This document shows positions 9,238-40,352 of a stretch of DNA of 40,370 nt, one piece after another. Under the pieces are notes generated by a model. That model searched no databases. It had not been told where the DNA came from and was given only the letters and a program-made list of their open reading frames with translations. The stretch spans positions 1 through 40,370 of the forward strand of contig CAIVDK010000166.1 in NCBI GenBank assembly GCA_903904655.1, written 5' to 3'. This DNA comes from an uncultured delta proteobacterium (GTDB lineage Bacteria > Desulfobacterota > Syntrophia > Syntrophales > Smithellaceae). Position 1 is the first letter of the stretch; every line of letters starts with the position of its first letter. The position numbers were made by a program, and so were the translations under genes.

Positions 9238-10905
9238 ATGAAGAAAAGATATATTCTGCTTTTGATGCCATTTCTTCTCTATGTCGCGCTGCTGGGTGTT
9301 ATGCCGCAGATGGAACCGGATGAATCCCGCTACAGTCTGATTCCCAGTGCGATGAACGAGACAGGCAACTATGTTACACCCCATATAAAAAATACCATTT
9401 ATCTGGAAAAACCGCCGTTGGCTTCCTGGGGGACGGCAGTGTCCTTTAAAATCTTCGGAGAAAACGACTTCTCCGCACGGTTATTTACAGGTCTTTGCGC
9501 CTGGGGCTGTATCCTGCTCACGTTTTTTATCGGACGGCGTTTTCGCGATGAAAAGACCGGTCTGTATGCCGCAGCTGTTCTCACCATATCCGTGTTTCCC
9601 TTTATTCTGGGAAGAATTAATATCCTGGATATGCCTCTGACCTTTTTTCTGTGTCTGTCCATATGGCTGGGCTATTTATCGTTAACCTCGGAAAAGAAAC
9701 GATACCGATCCTATTTATTCTATTTTACCTGTGCCTTGGCTTTCTTGACTAAGGGGATTATCGGAGTCGTTTTTCCATTTGCCATTTTAGTTATTTGGCT
9801 CGTTTGGGTCGGGCGCTGGCGCGAAATAGGGCGGCTGATTTCGCCTGTGGGAATTGTAATTTTCCTGATCGTTGTTTGCCCGTGGCTTTATCTGGCGCAG
9901 AAGGAAAATGCGGATTTCCTCTGGTTCTTCTTTGTGCGTGAACACTTCCTGCGTTTTACAACACAGATGCATGGCAAGACGGAGCCGTTTTATTACTTTC
10001 TGCCGATTATTATCGGCGGCATGCTTCCCTGGCTTGTTTACTTAATTCGCGCCGGGCAGCAAAAAAACATCAAAGCCTGTCTGTTCCAAAAGGATGACAA
10101 TAAACTGTTGGTCGTCTGGTTTTTATTTATTTTCATTTTTTACACGGTTTCTTCATCAAAACTCGCCCCATACATTGCTCCGGTATTTTTGCCTATCGCT
10201 CTTTTTGCCGGCCGGATATTTCGAAACCATGAAGAGGAACTGCCGGATCTGCTCGGCAAAAGAAAGATTTTTTACCGCCTTGCGTTATGCATTCAGTCAG
10301 CGATGATATTGATTGCTCTTCTCCTGCCGCCGATTTTGAAGCAATATTCTGATCCCGCCAAAGGACTGGTCGTTATGACCTCCGATTATTGGTGGGTATA
10401 TATCATTCCCGTGCTGATTGCGGCTGCTTTGCTGACTTTTCTGCCTGATCTCATTGCCCGTAAAGTTCGTGCGGGCTGGTTTGTAACGATCTACCTGCTT
10501 TGTTGTTTGCTTTTAGCGGGGATGATTTTTCCGCTCAATGATTTTCTGACTCCGTATCGCAGCGCACTGGTTGCCAAGGATGCGATTGCCCGGTATGTGC
10601 CGCCGGGGCAACTTTTATATCAGTATCGCGTCAATTTTTACGGGATTGATTTTTATAACAAGATCCGAACACCGATTATCGAAGATTTCGGTGAGTTGGG
10701 AGACGGCATCGTGAAAATGCCGCAGCAGGAAAGAAAGAAATATTTTTTATCGGTCAATGATTTCTTTGAAAAAATTGAACAGGAAAAGGAAATTTACTGT
10801 ATCACACAGCATCTGGATAAGCTGACACAGCTGCGATCGAAATATTCCCATGTCGATATTCTTTGGGACAATGGTGCATTTTATCTTTTACGTATTAAAA
10901 ATTGA
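9238..10905 (+). CDS. arnT: ArnT-like aminoarabinose lipid A transferase (PMT family)
   Basis: ArnT transfers 4-amino-4-deoxy-L-arabinose from undecaprenyl phosphate to lipid A phosphates on the periplasmic side, lowering surface negative charge. The 555-residue protein has the ArnT-type first loop (QMEPDESRYSLIPSAM, then YLEKPPLASWG), about twelve helices up to residue 420, and a soluble C-terminal domain. It starts one base after the PAP2 stop. Unlike enterobacterial operons, where arnT follows arnD, it lies upstream of arnB here. The gene symbol rests on operon context plus the loop motif; a related PMT enzyme with another sugar is possible. Confidence 0.82.
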   Translation: MKKRYILLLMPFLLYVALLGVMPQMEPDESRYSLIPSAMNETGNYVTPHIKNTIYLEKPPLASWGTAVSFKIFGENDFSARLFTGLCAWGCILLTFFIGRRFRDEKTGLYAAAVLTISVFPFILGRINILDMPLTFFLCLSIWLGYLSLTSEKKRYRSYLFYFTCALAFLTKGIIGVVFPFAILVIWLVWVGRWREIGRLISPVGIVIFLIVVCPWLYLAQKENADFLWFFFVREHFLRFTTQMHGKTEPFYYFLPIIIGGMLPWLVYLIRAGQQKNIKACLFQKDDNKLLVVWFLFIFIFYTVSSSKLAPYIAPVFLPIALFAGRIFRNHEEELPDLLGKRKIFYRLALCIQSAMILIALLLPPILKQYSDPAKGLVVMTSDYWWVYIIPVLIAAALLTFLPDLIARKVRAGWFVTIYLLCCLLLAGMIFPLNDFLTPYRSALVAKDAIARYVPPGQLLYQYRVNFYGIDFYNKIRTPIIEDFGELGDGIVKMPQQERKKYFLSVNDFFEKIEQEKEIYCITQHLDKLTQLRSKYSHVDILWDNGAFYLLRIKN

Positions 10906-32170: not shown

Positions 32171-34225
32171 CTATATTTCACGAACGACATTGTATCCCTG
32201 ATGGATTGCATCAAAAGCTTTGGCTATGCGCCGGGCATCGCCAAGCACTTTGTAGCTAATGCCCTTCCTTTTGCAGATTTCCTCCAGCGGATTGTATGAT
32301 CTGGAGCCCAGGGCAAGCACCACAGTGTCGGCGGCGATTTCGCTCACGCCGTTTTCCGTTTCGACAACGACGCCGGCCGGCGTAATTTCCTTTGCCCTGG
32401 TGCTTGTCGTGATCCGAACGCGATGGCGGTGCAGGTCCTGCATCATTCCCCATCTCGTTGACTTTCCGATATCCGGGCCGACATGTTCCAGCATCTCGAT
32501 AATGACAATTTTTTTAGTTCCGATTGTTGAGAGCCTGTAGAGATCCTCGACGGGCTCCGCCCGATTGACAAACAGGAATTTAACCGCATCGGCCGGCAAT
32601 GTGCCTTTCTGAGCCAGAAAAAGAGCCGTTTCCACACCGACTGCGCCGCCGCCTATTATGGCGACGCGCTTTCCGACGCGAACCCGGCCTGAGAGTACAT
32701 CCCAGGCGCTGACGACATTCGGCAGCCCGGCGCCAGGAATGGGGGGCACAATTTCCACGGCGCCGGTCGCCAGTAATACGATGTCCGGATTTTCCCGGTC
32801 GATAACATCTTCATCTACCTCTGCGCCGATTACCACCTTTTTTATGCCGCTGGGTTCCAATTGAGCCTGCAGATCCGACGCCAATACAGAAAACTCTTCG
32901 CGACCAGGAGGGCTTCCGGCGATCAGCAGTTGTCCGCCGAGCCGTTCGCTTTTTTCATAGATCACCACCTCATGACCATGCTGCGCCGCAGTGGCCGCAG
33001 CGGACATTCCTGCCGGGCCACCCCCGCAGACCAGGATTTTCTTCGGGCTGTCCGTTTTGCCGGAAACGGCCGTAAGCTCATGCCCTGCCAGAGGATTGCA
33101 CAGGCATTCCACGGGTTGCACCACGAAGAGGTGATCGAAACATCCCTGGGCGCAGGCGATGCAGTGGATGATTTCACTGTCTCTGCCTTCGGCTGCTTTT
33201 TTCGGAAGGTCCGGATCGGCAATCAGCGGCCGGCCCATGGCCACCATATCACAGAGGTCGTCCTCGATCATCTGGCGGGCCGTTTGCGGATCGTTAATGC
33301 GGTGCCCGGCAATGACCGGAACGTCGACGCATTCCTTGATTCCTCTGGCCAGATAAGCATAGGCCGCGCGCGGCACTTCCGTGACGAGCTGCGGTATCCT
33401 TGCTTCGTGCCAACCTACATTCACGGAGATAGCATCCGCGCCTTTTTTAACGATCAGCGCGGCATATTCCTGAAGACGGATTCTACCAATCCCGTTGGCC
33501 ATAAGATCATTTCCATTAATCCGCCACATCACCGGATAGTCTCTTCCCACCGCATTGCGAACGGCTGTCGCAATCTCCAAACCGAAACGCATGCGGTTTT
33601 CCCACGACCCGCCGTATTCGTCATACCGCTGATTCGTTAATTCGGACAAGAACTGGCTGATGAGATAGCCCGTTCCGGACAGAATCTCGACAAAATCAAA
33701 ACCGGCCTTTTTCGCCCGGACGGCTGCATCGGCGAAGTCCTGAATCGTCTGTTTGATTTCTTCCAATTCCAATGCCCGGGGCGTTTCATGTGTAAACCTT
33801 GAGAAGACGGCGGATGGCGCGACGGCTTGTTTTCCTTCCATCATGATGGAATGGGCATAGCGACCCGCGTGGTTCAATTGCAGGCCCGCTTTTCCGTCGC
33901 CCAGTTGCATGGCTTTGCGCAAATGCGACAACCCCTCGATAAAGTCATCGGCATATGCGCCGATAACGCCTCCGCCGGAAGATTCATTGACACCGGCATA
34001 GCCGGCGATCAAGGCGCCCGCGCCTCCCCGCGCCCGTGCCGCATAAAAGGCTATGATCCGATCGTTGATATACGGCGTCGGGATCATGTTGAGGTGCATG
34101 GCCGGCATCATAATGCGGTTGGGCACAATCATCTTATTGATGGTGACGGGTGAAAAAAGAATATCGTTTTCCGCCGGTTTTCTTTTGGCTGAATTCGCTT
34201 CTAAAGATTTGTTCAAAAACTCCAT
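32171..34225 (-). CDS. 2,4-dienoyl-CoA-reductase-type Fe-S flavoenzyme (OYE family)
   Basis: The 684-residue product combines an Old-Yellow-Enzyme TIM barrel with FMN (about residues 20-350), a 4Fe-4S site (Cys355, Cys358, Cys362 and Cys374 or 376) and a C-terminal FAD/NAD(P) reductase module with GGGPAGM at 401-407 and GGGAVG at 525-530. Barrel motifs include LNHAGRYAH and GTGYLISQFL with the likely acid Tyr187, then NQRYDEYGGSWENRMRF. This is the FadH/enoate reductase architecture that reduces conjugated C=C bonds with NAD(P)H. The start is ATG 34225 with GGAGG six bases before it; the open frame further upstream runs through a relict ferredoxin tail. It lies beyond a terminator and has no clear promoter. 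The true substrate is unknown. Confidence 0.9.
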   Translation of the reverse strand: MEFLNKSLEANSAKRKPAENDILFSPVTINKMIVPNRIMMPAMHLNMIPTPYINDRIIAFYAARARGGAGALIAGYAGVNESSGGGVIGAYADDFIEGLSHLRKAMQLGDGKAGLQLNHAGRYAHSIMMEGKQAVAPSAVFSRFTHETPRALELEEIKQTIQDFADAAVRAKKAGFDFVEILSGTGYLISQFLSELTNQRYDEYGGSWENRMRFGLEIATAVRNAVGRDYPVMWRINGNDLMANGIGRIRLQEYAALIVKKGADAISVNVGWHEARIPQLVTEVPRAAYAYLARGIKECVDVPVIAGHRINDPQTARQMIEDDLCDMVAMGRPLIADPDLPKKAAEGRDSEIIHCIACAQGCFDHLFVVQPVECLCNPLAGHELTAVSGKTDSPKKILVCGGGPAGMSAAATAAQHGHEVVIYEKSERLGGQLLIAGSPPGREEFSVLASDLQAQLEPSGIKKVVIGAEVDEDVIDRENPDIVLLATGAVEIVPPIPGAGLPNVVSAWDVLSGRVRVGKRVAIIGGGAVGVETALFLAQKGTLPADAVKFLFVNRAEPVEDLYRLSTIGTKKIVIIEMLEHVGPDIGKSTRWGMMQDLHRHRVRITTSTRAKEITPAGVVVETENGVSEIAADTVVLALGSRSYNPLEEICKRKGISYKVLGDARRIAKAFDAIHQGYNVVREI

Positions 34226-34293
34226 ATAACCTCCGTAAAAGTTGAAAAGACTTACAGCAGAATTTCGATATTGCTGATCGGATACGTGGTACA
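34206..34293 (-). repeat. duplicated junction segment, copy A
   Basis: This segment aligns with 35749-35830 (copy B). Both copies contain, in minus-strand order, the end of a ferredoxin-like domain, a TAAGTCTTT spacer, a GGAGG ribosome site, and the start ATGGAGTTT of a protein beginning MEF[LM]NKSL. Copy A carries about 9 extra bases before the ribosome site. Confidence 0.85.
34252..34293 (-). pseudogene. relict C-terminal tail of a 2Fe-2S ferredoxin domain
   Basis: Read on the minus strand, the 13 codons before the TAA at 34252-34254 encode CTTYPISNIEILL. The intact fusion protein encoded at 35788-38502 ends CVTYPIGDVEILL, so 9 of 13 residues are identical, including the last Fe-S cysteine. 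Nothing of the rest of the domain is left: the sequence before it is the hydrolase terminator. This is the remnant of a second copy of the fusion gene. Confidence 0.8.
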
Positions 34294-34295
34294 GT

Positions 34296-34336
34296 GAAAA
34301 AAGCAGGGCAACCTCGCGTAATCGAAGGTTGCCCTG
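34296..34336 (-). terminator. Rho-independent terminator after the NylB-like gene
   Basis: On the minus strand the arms CAGGGCAACCT and AGGTTGCCCTG form a perfect 11-bp stem around an 11-base loop, followed by CTTTTTTC. It lies 14 bases after the hydrolase stop and would separate the reductase gene from upstream transcription. Confidence 0.92.
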
Positions 34337-34350
34337 TTCAGAACAGTATT

Positions 34351-35652
34351 TTACTTCCTGACTGCCTGGGCCAGTGCTTCCCATGCCTTCAGGGTCATCG
34401 GATGGGTAAACCCGGCTCCCGCTATGGGATGCGAGGAGAGCTTGACCACCACCATTTCCGCGGCTGGGTTGATGTGAATCATATTGCCATGGACTCCTGA
34501 TGCCTCATAGGCCCCATCGGCATTATGCAGAATCCACCACTGATTGTGGTAGCTGTACCCGGCGCGAAATTTCATTCCCGAAGTCTTGAATTTCTCCCGG
34601 TCGCCGCCTTTTCGGATGCCATCGATGACCTCCTTATCGAAGATACGCTGGCCGTTCCACTCTCCGTCCCGGCGCATCATTTCCGCAAATCGGGCCAGAT
34701 CCCTTGCCGTGGCACAGAGTCCGGACCCCTGCAGAGGCGTCCCCACGGCGTCGACCATGATATAGGCATCCTCCTCCATTCCCAGTCTCTGCCAGATTCT
34801 CTCTGACATGATGTCCGCAAAGTGCTGCCCGGTAATGCGGGACAGAATCCACCCCAGCACATCGGAGTGCACCGTGCGGTATACGAATCCGGCGCCATGT
34901 TCACCCTCTTTTTTGAGCGATTTCAAAAATTCGCAGATTGTCAGGGGACCTTTGTAGGTCGGAGGCGGCAACATCAGGCCCATGGCATAGTTATAGGCGA
35001 ATATTTCAGTGGACGGGTCGGTGTAGACTTCCCGAAAACGGACGGCACCTGTCATATCAAGGACGTCGCGGACCTTCATGTCGCCCCATGCGCTTTCGGC
35101 CAGTTCCGGCACATACTTCGTAACCAGGGCGTCCGGATCGAGTTTGCCGTCCCGGACCATCTGTGCCGCGAGCAATCCCGTAAACGACTTGGTCACAGAA
35201 AACAAGATGTGCGGCGTCTCCTCTGCGCCCTGGTTATAGTAGCGCTCATAGACGAGCTTACCCTTGTGCAACACGACGAGGGCATCTGTATACGTTTTTT
35301 TCTGCCACTCGGAGATAGTGATCTTTTGCCCTTTTTCATCCTCGAAAACAAAATTATCCAGGTTGCGTTCCGCTTTTGGAAGTTCGGAAATTTGTCCACT
35401 GCCACGACGGATATTCTTTGTCGTGCCGAGCTCTCGAATGTGCTGAAGCGACCAGCGCAGTTGCGGGTATTTAGAACTGTTTTTGGAGCTGACAACCTTG
35501 TCGGCCGGCGGGGGGAATCCGGTCATGAACCCGAGCTTGTCAATGGCGACTGCGTCCGGGGGCGGCAATTGCTGCGCTATGCCCGACGAGTTTAAAAAAA
35601 AGCATCCGATGACCAGCGTCACAATAAAACACCACACGTTTATCCTTTTCAT
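34351..35652 (-). CDS. secreted serine hydrolase, NylB/class C beta-lactamase fold
   Basis: The 433-residue protein has a signal peptide (basic MKR, hydrophobic stretch about residues 7-20, AQQ cleavage region), so it should act in the periplasm or outside. The fold is penicillin-binding-protein-like: the catalytic SxxK is Ser152/Lys155 (FSVTKSFTG) and the second motif is Tyr258 in YRTVHSDVLGW. The third motif reads GVHGN at 386-390 instead of KTG. This set is that of 6-aminohexanoate-dimer hydrolase (NylB) and related esterases rather than true beta-lactamases. It sits 3' of the fusion oxidoreductase on the same strand, with an AGGAGG ribosome site. A role in opening an amide, lactone or ester for the neighbouring redox enzymes is inference. 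Confidence 0.87.
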   Translation of the reverse strand: MKRINVWCFIVTLVIGCFFLNSSGIAQQLPPPDAVAIDKLGFMTGFPPPADKVVSSKNSSKYPQLRWSLQHIRELGTTKNIRRGSGQISELPKAERNLDNFVFEDEKGQKITISEWQKKTYTDALVVLHKGKLVYERYYNQGAEETPHILFSVTKSFTGLLAAQMVRDGKLDPDALVTKYVPELAESAWGDMKVRDVLDMTGAVRFREVYTDPSTEIFAYNYAMGLMLPPPTYKGPLTICEFLKSLKKEGEHGAGFVYRTVHSDVLGWILSRITGQHFADIMSERIWQRLGMEEDAYIMVDAVGTPLQGSGLCATARDLARFAEMMRRDGEWNGQRIFDKEVIDGIRKGGDREKFKTSGMKFRAGYSYHNQWWILHNADGAYEASGVHGNMIHINPAAEMVVVKLSSHPIAGAGFTHPMTLKAWEALAQAVRK

Positions 35653-35768: not shown

Positions 35769-35830
35769 ATACCCTCCTTGGAAAGACTTACAGCAGAATT
35801 TCAACGTCACCGATCGGATAGGTGACGCAG
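35749..35830 (-). repeat. duplicated junction segment, copy B
   Basis: This is the partner of 34206-34293. It spans the last codons and stop of the intact fusion gene, the ribosome site and the first codons of the 24-codon relict. The two copies flank the NylB-like gene and its terminator as direct repeats about 1.5 kb apart. Confidence 0.85.
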
Positions 35831-38502
35831 GGATGAATATAACCGAACTTCGTATCCGATTTTCGCAAAAGCTCGGATGCCGGGTGAAATACCTTGCCGG
35901 AAAGAAGCTTAGTGCGGCAGGCGCTGCATTCGCCGCCCCGGCATAAAGACGGCACAACAACACCTGCTCTTTCCAGAGCGATTAGGACGGTTTCACCGGC
36001 ATTTGCGGTAAGCGTGCGACCATCAGGCAACGTTACCGTAAATTGGTCTTTGCCGCCGATGCCGTGGGGCCAGCCCGGCAGTTTGGTGGGATCATCGGGC
36101 GCTGTTTGAACCTCGCGACGGATTTGCCGATCCGAAACCCCCAACTTTTGAAGTTCGGGCAGGACAAAATCATACATGACGGTGGGCCCGCAGAGAAAGA
36201 ACGTGCAATGCGCGACATCTCCCGCGACATCCCTGATAATGTCTGCCGTAACGAATCCCTGACGTTCGCGGCAGTCTGCCCCCGGCTCCGAAATGACCGG
36301 ATGTATTTTGACAAAGCCTGCTTTCTCCAGCTTGCGCAGCCTTGTCTTAAAAATAATGTCCTCTTCCCTGGCGCAGCCATAGATGAGATCAATCTGATAG
36401 TCGCGGTTTGCTTTTTCAAAATCAGTCTGCAGCATACTCATGAATGGCGTAATGCCCGAGCCGCCGGCGATTAAAATAAGTCTTTTATCGTGGACGGGGC
36501 CGATCCGATAGAAATTGCCCGCCGGGCCGGAACCGGTCAGCAGATTGCCAACTTTCAGTTGGCCCAGTAGATAGTCCGAGACGAAACCGTTTTTAGCGGT
36601 GCGCACCGTGATTTCGTAATAGGCGCGCTGGGTGGCGGGTGAAGCAATACTGTAGGGCCGGCTGGTGCGAATGCCATCAATATCCACTTCAAGATTGATG
36701 TACTGGCCGGGAACAAACGGCGGAAGGTATCCGTCTGTCGATGTCAGGCGTATCGTTTTGGCACTGTCTGTCTCCTTGCGGATTTCCGTAACGCGGTATT
36801 CAATGTTCCCGGGATGCAGGACATCCAGTGCCCGTTTGATGCTGCCGCGGTTGCACCGGTGATCGAGATTATATCTCTGACTGACTTCAATTTCCTTTCG
36901 AATCGAATCCAGACCGGCTAGGCCTTCAAACGCTGTGGGGGCTTTGGGTTTCCGGCCCGTCGAATCTTTCAGGATCAATTTTGCCGCCGTATAGCCGGAG
37001 GTCAGCGTGGTGTTGAAACCGCCGAAGAGCAATGACGCTCCACAGAAATAGAGCCCGTTGATGGGGGAACGGGCCTGCATCTTGTTGGCGATCAGATCCT
37101 TGAAATACGCGTCCACACCGTAGATGCAGCCTCCGGGCGAGTTGATATACCGCATCAGCGTAAGTGGGGTGAATGCTTCCATTTCCTCAATGTGCCCCTT
37201 GATTTTCGGGTAAAATTGATACAGGAAGTCCAGCAGTTTGGAGGCATACTGCATCTTTGCCTCGTGATATTTTTCGGGCGGCAGATTGATCCACGAATCG
37301 GCTGTCTGGCTGGAGAGAATCGTGATGACACTGGTTCCTTTCGGGCTGCAGTCTGGATCATCAATATTGTAGCAGGACATGTACCCGCCGGGGATAACGC
37401 TGGTCTGATGCAAACCGACGTCATAGCGCATCCTCGGCATGTTGAGCGGCGCGGCCATAAAGCTGGTGGCGTTCTTAATGCCCGCTTCTTGTGCCGTGCA
37501 GTCCAGACCAATAAAAAGTCCGAACGACGACATGCTGAGGGTGGAGACGCGCAGTTCCGCGAATACGCTTTCTGGGACGTGTTGTTCCTCAATCATATCC
37601 ACGTAAACATTGATCTTGTTGGCGTTGCAAAGGATGGTATCCGTTTTGAAGATTTCACCTGCGCCTGTCACCACGCCTCTGACCGAACCATCCTCCACCA
37701 GAATCTTTTCCACGGCTGTGTTGAATCTGATGGTGCCGCCCGATGCCAGAAATTCATCCGCAAGGGCGTTGGACATGGCTTGGGAGCCACCCTTCACATA
37801 ACAAGTACCTTCGCCGCGCGCATACAGGGCGGCCAAAGCCAGAAACGGGACGCGATCCACTGGCATGCCCAGGTAGCCGAAGAGCGCCTTGTATACCCCT
37901 TTCACAATGGAGTTTTTAAAATACCTGTCCAGCACCTCCTTGCCGGTCAACGAACCGAACTCGAATATCGTGGGGACTTTTTCTTTTGTCAGCGGCTCAT
38001 CTTCGGCGACGCTTTCATACAGGAGCGCCGTTTCTTCAGCTATTTTGTCGACCAGAGCCTGGTATTCCCGGATGGCATCGGCCTCATCCGGAGCCAGCTC
38101 CTGAAGCTTCTTTACAAAACCGTCATGGGAACCGGGCAGCACAATTTCACCCACTCCCGGAATCGCCAGGCGGAAGGCTTCTTCTTGCAAAACGAAATCG
38201 ATTTTATTCCATACGTTCAGTTCTTCAAAGAGCCTGCGCAGTGAACCTTTTTCGCCGCGATAATTATTGCTGATGTCATAGAGCTGGTGCAGCGCAACTT
38301 CGAATTCAAAGCGTCCGCGCCGAAAGGTCGTGCCGCAGCCGCCGGGGATGTTGTGCCTTTCCAGCAGAAGCACTTTTTTGCCGGCTTTGCAAAGGGTCAG
38401 TGCACCCGTCAGACCTCCATTTCCCGCTCCGACAACGACGGCGTCAAAAACGGAATCGTATTTGGTGACCGCCCCTCCTTCTTTTGCATTTGATGACGAC
38501 AT
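35788..38502 (-). CDS. triple fusion: CrtI/RetSat-like flavoprotein + ferredoxin reductase + 2Fe-2S ferredoxin
   Basis: The 904-residue protein has three modules. Residues 18-512 form a phytoene-desaturase/carotenoid-isomerase/retinol-saturase-like FAD enzyme (VVVGAGNGG at 22-30, IPGGCGTTF at 52-60, and INGLYFCGAS near 481). Residues about 565-790 form a ferredoxin-reductase unit with the FAD motif RPYS (615-618), the NAD(P) motif GGSGITP (680-686) and CGP (771-773). Residues about 818-904 form a plant-type 2Fe-2S ferredoxin with Cys854, Cys859, Cys862 and Cys892. The order suggests electron flow from NAD(P)H to FAD to the Fe-S centre to the N-terminal flavin, for saturating or isomerising C=C bonds. 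No carotenoid genes are nearby. GGAGG precedes ATG 38502, and a sigma-54 promoter lies upstream. Confidence 0.9.
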   Translation of the reverse strand: MSSSNAKEGGAVTKYDSVFDAVVVGAGNGGLTGALTLCKAGKKVLLLERHNIPGGCGTTFRRGRFEFEVALHQLYDISNNYRGEKGSLRRLFEELNVWNKIDFVLQEEAFRLAIPGVGEIVLPGSHDGFVKKLQELAPDEADAIREYQALVDKIAEETALLYESVAEDEPLTKEKVPTIFEFGSLTGKEVLDRYFKNSIVKGVYKALFGYLGMPVDRVPFLALAALYARGEGTCYVKGGSQAMSNALADEFLASGGTIRFNTAVEKILVEDGSVRGVVTGAGEIFKTDTILCNANKINVYVDMIEEQHVPESVFAELRVSTLSMSSFGLFIGLDCTAQEAGIKNATSFMAAPLNMPRMRYDVGLHQTSVIPGGYMSCYNIDDPDCSPKGTSVITILSSQTADSWINLPPEKYHEAKMQYASKLLDFLYQFYPKIKGHIEEMEAFTPLTLMRYINSPGGCIYGVDAYFKDLIANKMQARSPINGLYFCGASLLFGGFNTTLTSGYTAAKLILKDSTGRKPKAPTAFEGLAGLDSIRKEIEVSQRYNLDHRCNRGSIKRALDVLHPGNIEYRVTEIRKETDSAKTIRLTSTDGYLPPFVPGQYINLEVDIDGIRTSRPYSIASPATQRAYYEITVRTAKNGFVSDYLLGQLKVGNLLTGSGPAGNFYRIGPVHDKRLILIAGGSGITPFMSMLQTDFEKANRDYQIDLIYGCAREEDIIFKTRLRKLEKAGFVKIHPVISEPGADCRERQGFVTADIIRDVAGDVAHCTFFLCGPTVMYDFVLPELQKLGVSDRQIRREVQTAPDDPTKLPGWPHGIGGKDQFTVTLPDGRTLTANAGETVLIALERAGVVVPSLCRGGECSACRTKLLSGKVFHPASELLRKSDTKFGYIHPCVTYPIGDVEILL

Positions 38503-38626: not shown

Positions 38627-38642
38627 AGCGATTATCATGCCA
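38627..38642 (-). promoter_or_regulatory. sigma-54 (-24/-12) promoter for the oxidoreductase cluster
   Basis: Read on the minus strand the sequence is TGGCATGATAATCGCT, with GG and GC separated by exactly 10 bases and TGGCA intact. It matches the -24/-12 consensus (TGGCACG-N4-TTGCW) except for small changes. The start would be near 38616, giving a leader of about 114 bases to ATG 38502. The palindrome array then sits at about -84, -106 and -128, normal for enhancer-binding activators. The sequence fits, and the divergent gene encodes such an activator. Confidence 0.72.
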
Positions 38643-38691
38643 TAATAAATATCCTGTTATTCCGGTACGTATCGTATTCCTCTTTCCATAA

Positions 38692-38753
38692 ATTGTCCTA
38701 TGGTGCAATGACTATTGTCCCATAGCACAACATTAATTGTCTTATAGAGCAAT
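38692..38753. promoter_or_regulatory. three-site palindrome array (candidate activator binding sites)
   Basis: Three 18-bp imperfect palindromes occur at 38692-38709 (ATTGTCCTATGGTGCAAT), 38714-38731 (ATTGTCCCATAGCACAAC) and 38736-38753 (ATTGTCTTATAGAGCAAT). Each is symmetric at 12 of 18 positions, and start-to-start spacing is exactly 22 bp twice, about two helical turns. They lie in the 317-base gap (38503-38819) between the divergent genes, which otherwise holds only the two promoters and the small inverted repeat. They are the likely upstream activating sequences for the adjacent sigma-54 activator. Confidence 0.75.
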
Positions 38754-38765: not shown

Positions 38766-38819
38766 AAAACATTGTTCCTCACAAAAGGAACGACTGCATC
38801 TTATGTGCGGGAGGCTATG

Positions 38820-40352
38820 ATGATCGATGAAAATGATTTCTTCAGACAAGTGACAACAAGAGTATGCGGCTCGTTGGATATCAAGACAGCCCTGGCTAAA
38901 GCTTTTCAATATCTCAAGGAATTCATTCCGCTGGATGCCATGGGACTCCATCTCTATGAGCCGGAACTGAACGTCATGCGTACGATCGCCCGCGTGAGTG
39001 CGTCAGGAAGCTTTGTTGTCGATCAAGTTACGCCTCTGCGGGGGAAGTTGGAAGAGTTGCAAGAACCGGTAAAGATCATTAATCATCCGGAGCGCGATCT
39101 TCTCATCAAAACCATGATTCGCCACGGAAAGCCGTCTGCATCTTCCGTGATGCTTCTTTATCTGATGATGGCCGAGGACAGGGGCGGTGCCTTGTCGATG
39201 CGGGCTGACGGCAAAAACAAATACCGTGAGGATCATGCGCAATTACTGTCGCTGGTTGCCGAACCCTTTACCATCGCTCTGGATAATGCTTTGAAACATC
39301 GCGAGCTGTCCAACCTCAAAGACAGGCTTGCGGATGACAACCGCTACTTGCAGAAGGAGCTGCGGGATATCTACGGTGATAAAATTATAGGCGAGAATTC
39401 GGGGCTGAAAGATATTATGGCTATGGTCCGACAGGTGGCGCCGCTGGACAGTCCCGTACTACTCTTGGGAGAGACTGGTACGGGCAAGGACGTGATCGCC
39501 AATGCCATCCATTATTCTTCCAAACGCAGGGGCGGCTCTTTCATCAAGGTGAATTGCGGCGCCATTCCCGATACGCTCTTGGACAGCGAGCTTTTCGGAC
39601 ATGAAAAAGGCGCCTTCACCGGGGCAGATGTTCAGAAGAGGGGACGCTTTGAACGCGCACACGGAGGGACGATTTTTCTCGATGAGGTGGGAGAGCTCCT
39701 CCCTCAGGCTCAAGTCCGGATGCTTCGTGTGCTGCAGGAAAAAGAGATTGAAAGAGTAGGCGGCGCAAAAGTGATACCGGTGGACATCCGATTGATTACG
39801 GCTACCAACAGAAACCTGGAGGAAATGGCGCGTTCAAACCAGTTTCGTCGAGATCTGTGGTTTCGTCTGAACGTCTTTCCGATTTTCATTCCTCCGTTGA
39901 GGGAGAGGAAGCATGATATCCCCGAGTTTGTAGACTATTTCATGCTGAAGAAATCAAGAGACATGAAACTTTCCCGGCCTCCCAAGCTCGCTACCGGAAC
40001 AATCAATCGGCTGCTCGATTATGAATGGCCCGGAAATGTGAGGGAACTGGAAAACGTCGTCGAGCGCGCCCTGATCATGAACCAGGGGGAGCAGCTGATT
40101 ATTGACGATTCGCTCATACCGAAGAAATCGAGTTGCTACACCCGTCCATTGGTTGTCATCAATGAATCACTCAATTTAGATGCGGTCGTTTCCAACCACA
40201 TCAGGAAGGCGCTGCAATCGACAGACGGGAGGGTTCACGGGCCGGACGGCGCCGCCCGTCTACTGGGCATCAACCCCAGCACACTGAGAAAACGGATGTC
40301 GAAACTCGGGATCGATTACGGAAGGCGCTTTAGAGCAAAAAGTGACCGGTAA
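38820..40352 (+). CDS. sigma-54-dependent activator, GAF-AAA-Fis type
   Basis: From ATG 38820 the product has 510 residues. An N-terminal GAF-like sensor domain spans about residues 5-160 and a short coiled linker follows. The AAA+ domain has Walker A GETGTGKD (217-224), the sigma-54 contact loop GAFTGA (264-269), Walker B FLDE (286-289), and the FRRDLWFRLNVFPI and WPGNVRELENVVERA motifs. A Fis-type helix-turn-helix (about 474-493, GAARLLGINPSTLRKRM) ends it. There is no receiver domain, so it probably responds to a small ligand or redox signal through GAF, like FhlA or NorR. GGGAGG (38809-38814) favours ATG 38820 over ATG 38817. It is divergent from the oxidoreductase cluster and is its likely regulator. 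Confidence 0.94.
   Translation: MIDENDFFRQVTTRVCGSLDIKTALAKAFQYLKEFIPLDAMGLHLYEPELNVMRTIARVSASGSFVVDQVTPLRGKLEELQEPVKIINHPERDLLIKTMIRHGKPSASSVMLLYLMMAEDRGGALSMRADGKNKYREDHAQLLSLVAEPFTIALDNALKHRELSNLKDRLADDNRYLQKELRDIYGDKIIGENSGLKDIMAMVRQVAPLDSPVLLLGETGTGKDVIANAIHYSSKRRGGSFIKVNCGAIPDTLLDSELFGHEKGAFTGADVQKRGRFERAHGGTIFLDEVGELLPQAQVRMLRVLQEKEIERVGGAKVIPVDIRLITATNRNLEEMARSNQFRRDLWFRLNVFPIFIPPLRERKHDIPEFVDYFMLKKSRDMKLSRPPKLATGTINRLLDYEWPGNVRELENVVERALIMNQGEQLIIDDSLIPKKSSCYTRPLVVINESLNLDAVVSNHIRKALQSTDGRVHGPDGAARLLGINPSTLRKRMSKLGIDYGRRFRAKSDR

Follow-up and report, generated by a model that had tools for sequence, protein, structure and literature searches.

What would a relative of the carotenoid desaturases do with an electron supply of its own? 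The question is raised by a gene of an anaerobic bacterium, at 35788..38502 on the minus strand of the window (the whole 40,370-nucleotide stretch of DNA analysed here), in which a CrtI-type flavoprotein, a ferredoxin-reductase unit and a [2Fe-2S] ferredoxin are joined in a single chain of 904 residues. An earlier note on this DNA had described such a three-module chain, and the gene bears the description out. The reading frame starts with ATG and has no internal stops, and its Pfam matches above curated cut-offs are Amino_oxidase (CrtI-type, residues 30-511), FAD_binding_6 (595-665), NAD_binding_1 (677-780) and Fer2 (826-896). The motifs GAGNGG (residue 25), RPYS (615), GGSGITP (680) and CGP (771) are present, the last three as the note had listed them, and the ferredoxin cysteines lie at exactly the residues it gave: 854, 859, 862 and 892.

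All modules are encoded on the minus strand. The CrtI-type FAD module, the proposed catalytic part, spans residues 18-513 (36964..38451), and its closest solved fold is 4rep (Z 37.5, rmsd 2.9, 470 aligned). It is followed by a helical arm (residues 514-565, 36808..36963) with model helices at 531-544, 548-551 and 554-562. The arm ends in an LHP motif whose H563 and P564 are conserved in 93 and 92 of 94 alignment rows, respectively; where the genes are separate, the counterpart of this arm is an N-terminal arm of the reductase. The ferredoxin-reductase unit, with its FAD and NAD(P) domains, occupies residues 566-797 (36112..36807) and finds benzoate dioxygenase reductase (1krh) as its top solved match. 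The [2Fe-2S] ferredoxin domain completes the chain (residues 818-904, 35791..36051), and each of its four ligand cysteines is kept in 91 of the 94 rows, the other three being gaps. With FAD_binding_6, NAD_binding_1 and Fer2 above cut-off and these four cysteines in place, the C-terminal half is a BenC-like electron chain. An AlphaFold model of the full-length fusion has a pLDDT of 90.9 and a pTM of 0.91, from an input alignment in which both halves are present in just 5 of 50 rows; the structure alignments consist of chosen rows (n=58 and n=50).

The window gene is the fused form of a widespread and conserved two-gene system. Seven other genomes (L065, L066, L067, L138, L031, L032 and L033) have the three parts in the same order within a single reading frame, so an assembly artefact can be ruled out; the nearest fused relatives are 88%, 82% and 57% identical to the window fusion. 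Among 80 named-genome loci found by CrtI-module patterns only, the reductase is directly downstream of the CrtI-type module in 77, as a separate gene in 73 and as a fusion in 4. One of these fusions is L138, with all three parts in one frame of 882 residues. Three of the 77 (L072, L080 and L091) are cut ahead of the ferredoxin. Two further loci (L117 and L121) carry the reductase upstream, one gene away, and in the last (L125) the contig stops 16 nt past the match. A fresh set of loci, 17 of 21 being kept after removal of repeats of earlier contigs (L201, L208, L211 and L218), has the reductase in 17 of 17, with L206 lacking a ferredoxin match in the same reading frame. More distant CrtI-type genes have the reductase in 0 of 10 loci, within the stretch examined around each. 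A pairing that is near-constant here but missing in those ten distant relatives argues for a dedicated electron chain. CrtI-type enzymes had been thought in the earlier note normally to stand alone, which is wrong for this branch, where the reductase is the next gene in most relatives. The note had also allowed for separate genes with an unrelated role for the ferredoxin parts; the outcome was the opposite, the two genes lying side by side in the 73 loci counted above.

In a supported tree of 64 rows, a subset of the loci picked for diversity, the fusions are most simply explained by three events, one with reversed order. Record titles for the system include Delta- and Gammaproteobacteria, Syntrophomonas, Clostridia, Spirochaetes, Nocardia, Actinomadura and Chloroflexi. 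Plasmid and phage searches returned no record that covers 80% of the query at a single location, the top plasmid match being a Ligilactobacillus pair without ferredoxin.

The operon partner of the fusion offers a guide to its chemistry. The gene at 32171..34384 (minus strand) encodes an FMN/FAD reductase with Oxidored_FMN (PF00724) and Pyr_redox_2 (PF07992) in one chain. Its near full-length alignment to the top solved match, 1ps9 (E 1.7e-108, query residues 76-716 against chain residues 5-648), makes it 2,4-dienoyl-CoA reductase-like; against the BaiCD equivalog it scores 490.8, below the cut-off of 825. Its true start is probably Met54, near 34225: a gene adjoining the fusion in genome G009 is 87% identical, and its first residue aligns there. 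In both G009 and G004 the dienoyl-CoA-reductase-like gene follows the fusion and is itself followed by an enoyl-CoA hydratase. A serine hydrolase (PF00144, 34351..35652, minus strand) has 6-aminohexanoate-dimer hydrolase as its closest solved relative; judged by eye, its hydrophobic N-terminus resembles a signal peptide.

A NifA/FhlA-like sigma-54 activator (38772..40352, plus strand; PF00158 and HTH_8) is encoded divergently and matches the nifA model with E 8.6e-110, under that model's cut-off. A candidate -24/-12 promoter of the fusion, TGGCATGATAATCGCT, lies at 38627..38642 on the minus strand; at 9 of 11 consensus positions it is a weak match, and such sites occur 11 times across the whole window. 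G009 has a 9/11 site in the same orientation, and the Syntrophomonas-type loci L087, L088 and L090 have sites matching at 11/11 positions. Two 23-nt direct repeats at 38687-38709 and 38731-38753 (span 38687..38753) are candidate binding sites for the activator. Sigma-54 itself is encoded in the window genome, and the operon is probably under its control.

Across the family, many members adjoin acyl-CoA ligases, enoyl-CoA hydratases, acyl-CoA dehydrogenases or FabK-like reductases. With seed genes removed, acyl-CoA seed matches account for 36 of 292 genes no more than two genes from the pair and for 8 of 412 at a distance of five genes or more (odds 7.1, a test that overstates independence because the loci are related). 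An acyl-CoA gene lies within three genes in 33 of 96 scored loci and is absent there in 63; in the fresh set the figure is 8 of 17. These context counts omit L065, L066, L101, L109, L114, L117 and L121 (duplicate retrievals or tandem copies), as well as L049-L064 and the Ligilactobacillus locus L024, and leave L047 unscored as clustering recognised no core reading frame. The 105 operon partners (107 before removal of two reductase pieces) include 10 AMP-binding, 10 ECH, 6 NMO and 6 acyl-CoA dehydrogenase genes, the last equalled by 6 metallo-beta-lactamase-fold genes. Two ligase neighbours that we examined score best as long-chain fatty-acid ligases, though under cut-off. The 2,4-dienoyl-CoA-reductase-like gene has no family-wide enrichment (2/301 near, 2/413 far).

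Neighbour context varies by phylum. HMG-CoA synthase and thiolase genes occur near some members. A TetR-type gene lies close to the pair in 13 gammaproteobacterial loci, of which only L092, L093 and L095 have acyl-CoA genes as well. Five Nocardia loci have in common a gene of 145-160 residues, probably SnoaL-like to judge from five SnoaL_2 matches among the 105 partners; one copy searched singly gave no match at 1e-9. Overall the context points to unsaturated acyl chains rather than carotenoids. For the terpenoid or aromatic-derived substrates suggested in the earlier note we found no direct evidence, the neighbours pointing instead to acyl-CoA and unsaturated fatty-acid metabolism.

We propose, with a probability of roughly 45%, that the fusion is a self-contained NAD(P)H-driven C=C saturase, most likely for an unsaturated long-chain fatty acid or acyl-CoA. 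Alongside the observed domains, conserved pairing, repeated fusion and gene context, we infer a direction of electron flow. Electrons from NAD(P)H would enter the FAD of the reductase unit, pass singly to the [2Fe-2S] cluster and from there reach the FAD of the CrtI-type module. This module would hydrogenate a C=C bond in a long hydrophobic substrate; the divergent sigma-54 activator would turn the operon on. The earlier note had left saturase and isomerase side by side. The NAD(P)H supply that it described is indeed part of the chain, as the domains attest, and we favour a saturase because the protein brings its own reducing equivalents and shares its operon with a member of a C=C reductase family. 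An unsaturated fatty acid or acyl-CoA seems the likeliest substrate because the operon encodes a dienoyl-CoA-reductase-like enzyme and many family members adjoin acyl-CoA genes. Against an acyl saturase stand the 63 loci with no acyl-CoA gene nearby, the lack of family-wide enrichment of the dienoyl-CoA-reductase-like gene, and the metallo-beta-lactamase-fold, TetR-type and Nocardia neighbours. Those of the closest solved folds that have been characterised, moreover, use carotenoids as substrates, and reduction is chemically more demanding for an isolated double bond than for a conjugated one.

Pfam and fold would agree with an ordinary carotenoid enzyme, a desaturase or isomerase whose reductase is incidental. 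The CrtI-type module scores 131.8 bits against TIGR02730 (carotenoid isomerase; cut-off 586.9), 107.0 against TIGR02733 (549.7) and 98.6 against TIGR02734 (CrtI phytoene desaturase; 238.1), reaching none of these cut-offs. Phytoene/squalene synthase (PF00494, E 1e-10) is absent in 24 of 25 system-carrying genomes, the window genome included, and in 12 of the 13 whose completeness is rated at 90% or more and contamination at 5% or less; the same search found it in 7 of 14 control genomes. We reject a carotenoid role because the family cut-offs are unmet and PF00494 is absent, in keeping with the non-carotenoid substrate that the note had expected. Loci L174, L178 and L179 pass the TIGR02734 cut-off (404 to 542). 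As for the CrtI part of the N-terminal-module tree that the note had suggested, genuine CrtI sequences lie outside the system's clade. The reductase pairing is moreover too consistent for a chance association, and an ordinary carotenoid enzyme is hardly credible.

A reductase might instead serve merely to keep the CrtI flavin reduced, with no net transfer of hydrogen, in an enzyme that isomerises unsaturated chains, either cis-trans or in double-bond position. Carotenoid isomerase requires reduced FAD and outscores the other carotenoid families on the module, the fold also includes a known fatty-acid isomerase (2b9w, Z 25.1), and isomerisation would equally suit the enoyl-CoA hydratase and dienoyl-CoA reductase neighbours. 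That top score is nevertheless far under its cut-off, 2b9w is not known to have an electron-supply or reductase partner, and a three-cofactor chain at a 1:1 dose would seem to exceed the needs of priming; we regard an isomerase as unlikely. Isoprenoids are the classical substrates of CrtI-fold enzymes, and a saturase of lipid chains, isoprenoid or otherwise (for instance terpenoid acids, quinone tails or polyketide polyenes), with the acyl-CoA neighbours serving later breakdown of the acid, would fit the HMG-CoA synthase and thiolase genes and the variation in context between phyla. Squalene/phytoene synthase is missing from 24 of 25 genomes and the two ligases lean towards long-chain fatty acids, albeit under cut-off, which makes such substrates improbable. 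Electrons could also run the other way, from a substrate dehydrogenated by the CrtI-type module through the ferredoxin to NAD(P)+, since CrtI itself is a desaturase and the closest folds are carotenoid desaturases. A saturated carbon chain would have to pass its electrons strongly uphill to reach NAD+, however, and reductases of the benzoate-dioxygenase/methane-monooxygenase type deliver electrons from NADH, which leaves reverse flow very improbable.

Oleate hydratase is a known alternative means of attack on a fatty-acid double bond, and its family (PF06100) is absent in 24 of the same 25 system-carrying genomes, which speaks for the saturase reading. A tentative and, on present evidence, rather doubtful extension of the saturase reading is that the pair is a biohydrogenase for oleate or linoleate in anaerobic fat degraders, across several phyla and acting without oleate hydratase. 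For digesters, biohydrogenation has been described as a presumed part of oleate breakdown, with no enzyme named in the passages concerned (PMC7934545), and hydrogenation of the double bond is likewise described with the enzyme unnamed in the relevant passage (PMC6328780). In a rumen Butyrivibrio, oleate hydratase has been suggested for oleate hydrogenation (PMC6249431), which tells against the saturase reading; Desulfatibacillum is reported as an oleate user and Desulfomonile tiedjei as a non-user (PMC7773648). We found no paper on the combination of a CrtI-type enzyme with a reductase-ferredoxin, including in syntrophic oleate hydrogenation, in open-licence PMC, a collection outside which most subscription journals lie. 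If the biohydrogenase reading is true, the system supplies an enzyme class for the digester conversion that those passages leave without a named enzyme (PMC7934545, PMC6328780). If only the isomerase reading is true, the system still forms an electron-coupled branch within the CrtI/CrtISO superfamily. A dedicated NAD(P)H-ferredoxin chain accompanies this branch in several phyla, and the fusion is an expressible candidate, with its electron supply in the same chain, for a step of anaerobic fat breakdown that is still poorly understood.

Among known systems, CrtISO (TIGR02730) and CrtI/CrtD (TIGR02734 and TIGR02733; 4rep and 4dgk) have the fold and FAD motif in common with the N-terminal module and are its best named families, yet with scores far under their cut-offs. 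Unlike them, the system carries or adjoins a reductase-ferredoxin, in genomes that lack phytoene/squalene synthase in 24 of 25 cases. The polyunsaturated fatty acid isomerase of P. acnes (2b9w), which makes conjugated linoleic acid, has the same overall fold (Z 25.1, rmsd 3.6, 401 aligned), amid many amine-oxidase-fold rows and ranked below 4rep. RetSat is a CrtI-superfamily flavoenzyme, likened here by description, and its likeness lies in the proposed C=C saturation chemistry. Saturation of a conjugated C18:3 fatty acid by RetSat has been postulated, without confirmation (PMC5188460), and the enzyme is described as an animal retinol enzyme of the ER, unlike the bacterial fusion (PMC5577314). 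The putative isoprene reductase IsrA of Acetobacterium wieringae resembles the fusion in anaerobic C=C hydrogenation by flavin and Fe-S; the published description is of an oxidoreductase that has HypA/HypB partners and sites for NADH, FAD and [4Fe-4S] (PMC10134865), and we set this lead aside as its domain architecture differs. The domain content of the C-terminal half matches reductases of the BenC/PaaE/MmoC type, with scores of 150.8, 137.6 and 115.0 bits against the PaaE, BenC and MmoC equivalogs that do not reach their cut-offs (420.8, 430 and 500). Unlike those reductases, which serve oxygenases, the reductase of this system is paired with a CrtI-type flavoprotein.

The fusion gene (35788-38502, minus strand) is a stop-free ORF of 904 residues. 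Pfam places a CrtI-type amine-oxidase-fold module at residues 30-511, FAD_binding_6 at 595-665, NAD_binding_1 at 677-780 and Fer2 at 826-896, all above the curated cut-offs. With an uninterrupted ORF and every domain above threshold, the three-module single chain claimed in the earlier note is real. The reductase motifs it named (RPYS, GGSGITP and CGP) begin at residues 615, 680 and 771, and the ferredoxin cysteines lie exactly where it put them, at 854, 859, 862 and 892; these four are kept in 91 of 94 alignment rows, with gaps in the remaining three. Predicted structures are confident both for the CrtI module alone (pLDDT 86.9, pTM 0.88) and for the whole chain (pLDDT 90.9, pTM 0.91), the latter from a 50-row alignment in which only 5 rows contain both halves. 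By structure comparison, the nearest fold to the CrtI module is gamma-carotenoid desaturase 4rep (Z 37.5, rmsd 2.9, 470 residues aligned). The segment between the halves (residues 514-565) has LHP at its end, with His563 present in 93 of 94 rows and Pro564 in 92. Since separate reductases bear the same N-terminal arm, this segment is that arm rather than a new linker.

The fusion represents one version of a two-gene system. Named genomes were scanned with patterns taken from the CrtI module only; at least 586 stretches matched, confirmation left 575, and the 80 best of these were analysed. Among these 80, a reductase directly follows the CrtI-type gene in 77 loci, as a separate gene in 73 (in L072, L080 and L091 the contig stops before the ferredoxin) and within a single ORF in four (L065, L066, L067 and L138). 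Two others, L117 and L121, have tandem CrtI-type genes, of which the later was matched, and the reductase-ferredoxin is upstream of it at a distance of one gene; in the last, L125, the contig ends 16 bases past the match. All 17 later loci, from Syntrophomonadaceae, the window's order (Syntrophales) and one Treponema-type genome, have an adjoining reductase, in one case (L206) with no ferredoxin match within the reductase ORF. The CrtI module is found at E 1e-75 or better in 26 of 155 genomes of the window's order, and at 1e-60 in 14 of 54 genomes from the family of the Syntrophomonas-type locus. More distant CrtI-type genes of the window's order (L049-L058, 28-30% identical) have a reductase in none of 10 retrieved stretches.

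A maximum-likelihood tree built on 64 rows groups 50 partnered rows in one clade (96/97); four unpartnered paralogues and the CrtI sequences above the family cut-off fall outside it. Fusions occupy three places: the window with L065, L066 and L067 (100/98); L138 with L031, L032 and L033 (100/100); and L047, which has the separate-gene pair L048 as its sister (100/100). The 997-residue ORF of L047 (2752-5745) has the reverse order, reductase-ferredoxin N-terminal to the CrtI module, and must have arisen independently. Fusion arose more than once, three events being the simplest count; later splitting of old fusions is a possible alternative to that count. Consistent pairing and repeated fusion make an electron chain dedicated to the CrtI-type enzyme well supported.

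Several loci depart from the simple pair. In L121 (2-4078), L117 (2-3173; the contig begins within the reductase) and L216 (6168-11108), CrtI-type genes flank one reductase-ferredoxin gene and a 171-residue gene, which in L216 has no Pfam match at 1e-6; one electron supply may be common to two catalytic subunits. The unpaired L049-L058 paralogues (541-574 residues) carry an N-terminal extension, and in L053 and L055 a sigma-54 activator resembling the window's is close by. A Ligilactobacillus acidipiscis plasmid (L024, 7929-17886) has a related CrtI-type/reductase pair without ferredoxin. The pair's neighbours there are a TetR gene, genes for pyruvate oxidase and FAD synthetase, and a cluster for riboflavin synthesis, as though the plasmid brought its own flavin. 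On a Pseudalkalibacillus plasmid (L175, 1-7410), another CrtI-like gene lies inside a fatty-acid/polyketide-like cluster of acyl carrier protein, ketosynthase, enoyl-CoA hydratase and FabZ-like genes.

In the window, the next gene on the same strand (34351-35652) encodes a serine hydrolase whose nearest relative of solved structure is 6-aminohexanoate-dimer hydrolase. It stands between the fusion and a same-strand FMN/FAD reductase (32171-34384), whose residues 76-716 best match the solved 2,4-dienoyl-CoA reductase 1ps9 (E 1.7e-108), the E. coli enzyme. Genomes G009 and G004 lack the hydrolase there; the same reductase (87% identical in G009) immediately follows the fusion, and then enoyl-CoA hydratase. 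A NifA-like sigma-54 activator (38772-40352) is divergent from the fusion. The gap between them contains two 23-nt repeats and a candidate -24/-12 site directed at the fusion that matches 9 of 11 consensus positions; because the whole window, counting both strands, has 11 sites of at least this quality, it is by itself a weak candidate promoter. G009 has a similar site, three Syntrophomonas-type loci with an upstream sigma-54 activator have perfect 11-of-11 sites, and sigma-54 is encoded in the window's genome. The fusions L032 (10619-16389) and L033 (6541-12175) are preceded by a thiamine-diphosphate enzyme and followed by a gene resembling an M24 peptidase; a large sigma-54 activator is divergent, and the gap holds 10-of-11 sigma-54 sites.

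Acyl-CoA-type genes (acyl-CoA ligase, enoyl-CoA hydratase, acyl-CoA dehydrogenase, FabK-like reductase, dienoyl-CoA-reductase-like) account for 36 of the 292 genes that lie at most two genes from the pair versus 8 of 412 at five or more, counted after dropping 11 seed genes picked from the near genes. The odds ratio is 7.1, with a one-sided Fisher p of 1.9e-8 that is too small because the loci are related. The near matches come from 27 of 96 loci; of the 17 later loci, 8 carry such a gene no more than three genes away. The commonest families among 105 operon partners are AMP-binding and enoyl-CoA hydratase (10 each), then NMO, acyl-CoA dehydrogenase and metallo-beta-lactamase (6 each) and SnoaL_2 (5). 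A TetR-type gene is close to the pair in 13 gammaproteobacterial loci, three of them also with acyl-CoA genes. In five Nocardia loci (L136, L137, L141, L142 and L143; about 9519-10013), a 145-160-residue, probably SnoaL-like gene shares 4 bases with the start of the CrtI-type gene, which suggests translational coupling. In a Treponema-type genome (L202, 7461-11984), two genes that match DUF5692, a family of unknown function, flank the pair, one on each side.

The order of parts suggests that electrons would pass from NAD(P)H to the reductase FAD, the [2Fe-2S] cluster, the FAD of the CrtI module and the substrate. Redox potentials favour flow toward the CrtI flavin, and from these and the reductase type it follows that electrons should run in that direction. 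The product would be a saturated chain; an isomerase, the other activity proposed from sequence alone, is less likely. An unsaturated fatty acid or acyl-CoA as substrate is suggested by gene context. In 63 of 96 scored loci no acyl-CoA gene lies within three genes of the pair, and the dienoyl-CoA-reductase-like gene alone is not enriched near it; a non-acyl substrate is about as likely as an isomerase. A carotenoid had already been thought improbable, and this is borne out: the fusion reaches no carotenoid equivalog cut-off, and squalene/phytoene synthase (PF00494; matched in 7 of 14 control genomes) is absent in 24 of 25 genomes with the system, the window's included. Oleate hydratase (PF06100; matched in 1 of 14 controls) is likewise absent in 24 and present in G031. 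Several of the 25 genomes are incomplete; among the 13 with a completeness rating of 90% or more and contamination of no more than 5%, each family is lacking in 12. We tentatively favour an NAD(P)H-driven saturase of unsaturated fatty acids or acyl-CoAs, served by a dedicated chain, with a probability of roughly 0.45 for this combined reading.

A full-text search of open-licence PMC with combined terms found no description of the pairing, and excerpts of PMC4926282, PMC6687939, PMC10134865, PMC12254105 and PMC5577314 do not mention it. The window's protein is a fused version of this widespread pairing, in which a CrtI-type flavoenzyme has an electron supply to itself; its most likely activity is to saturate unsaturated acyl chains. 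Among known systems, retinol saturase has been suggested to saturate alpha-eleostearic acid; an excerpt of PMC5188460 says that this was never confirmed and concludes that the enzyme's role is at most minor. For a rumen biohydrogenating Butyrivibrio, an excerpt of PMC6249431 reports no linoleate isomerase gene and ascribes oleate hydrogenation to oleate hydratase. PMC7773648 gives pairs of oleate users and non-users that would suit a presence test, and work cited in an excerpt of PMC6328780 has unsaturated acids converted to saturated acids two carbons shorter. For oleate in digesters, the relevant passage of PMC7934545 names no enzyme and gives two proposed routes, each of which includes biohydrogenation of the double bond.
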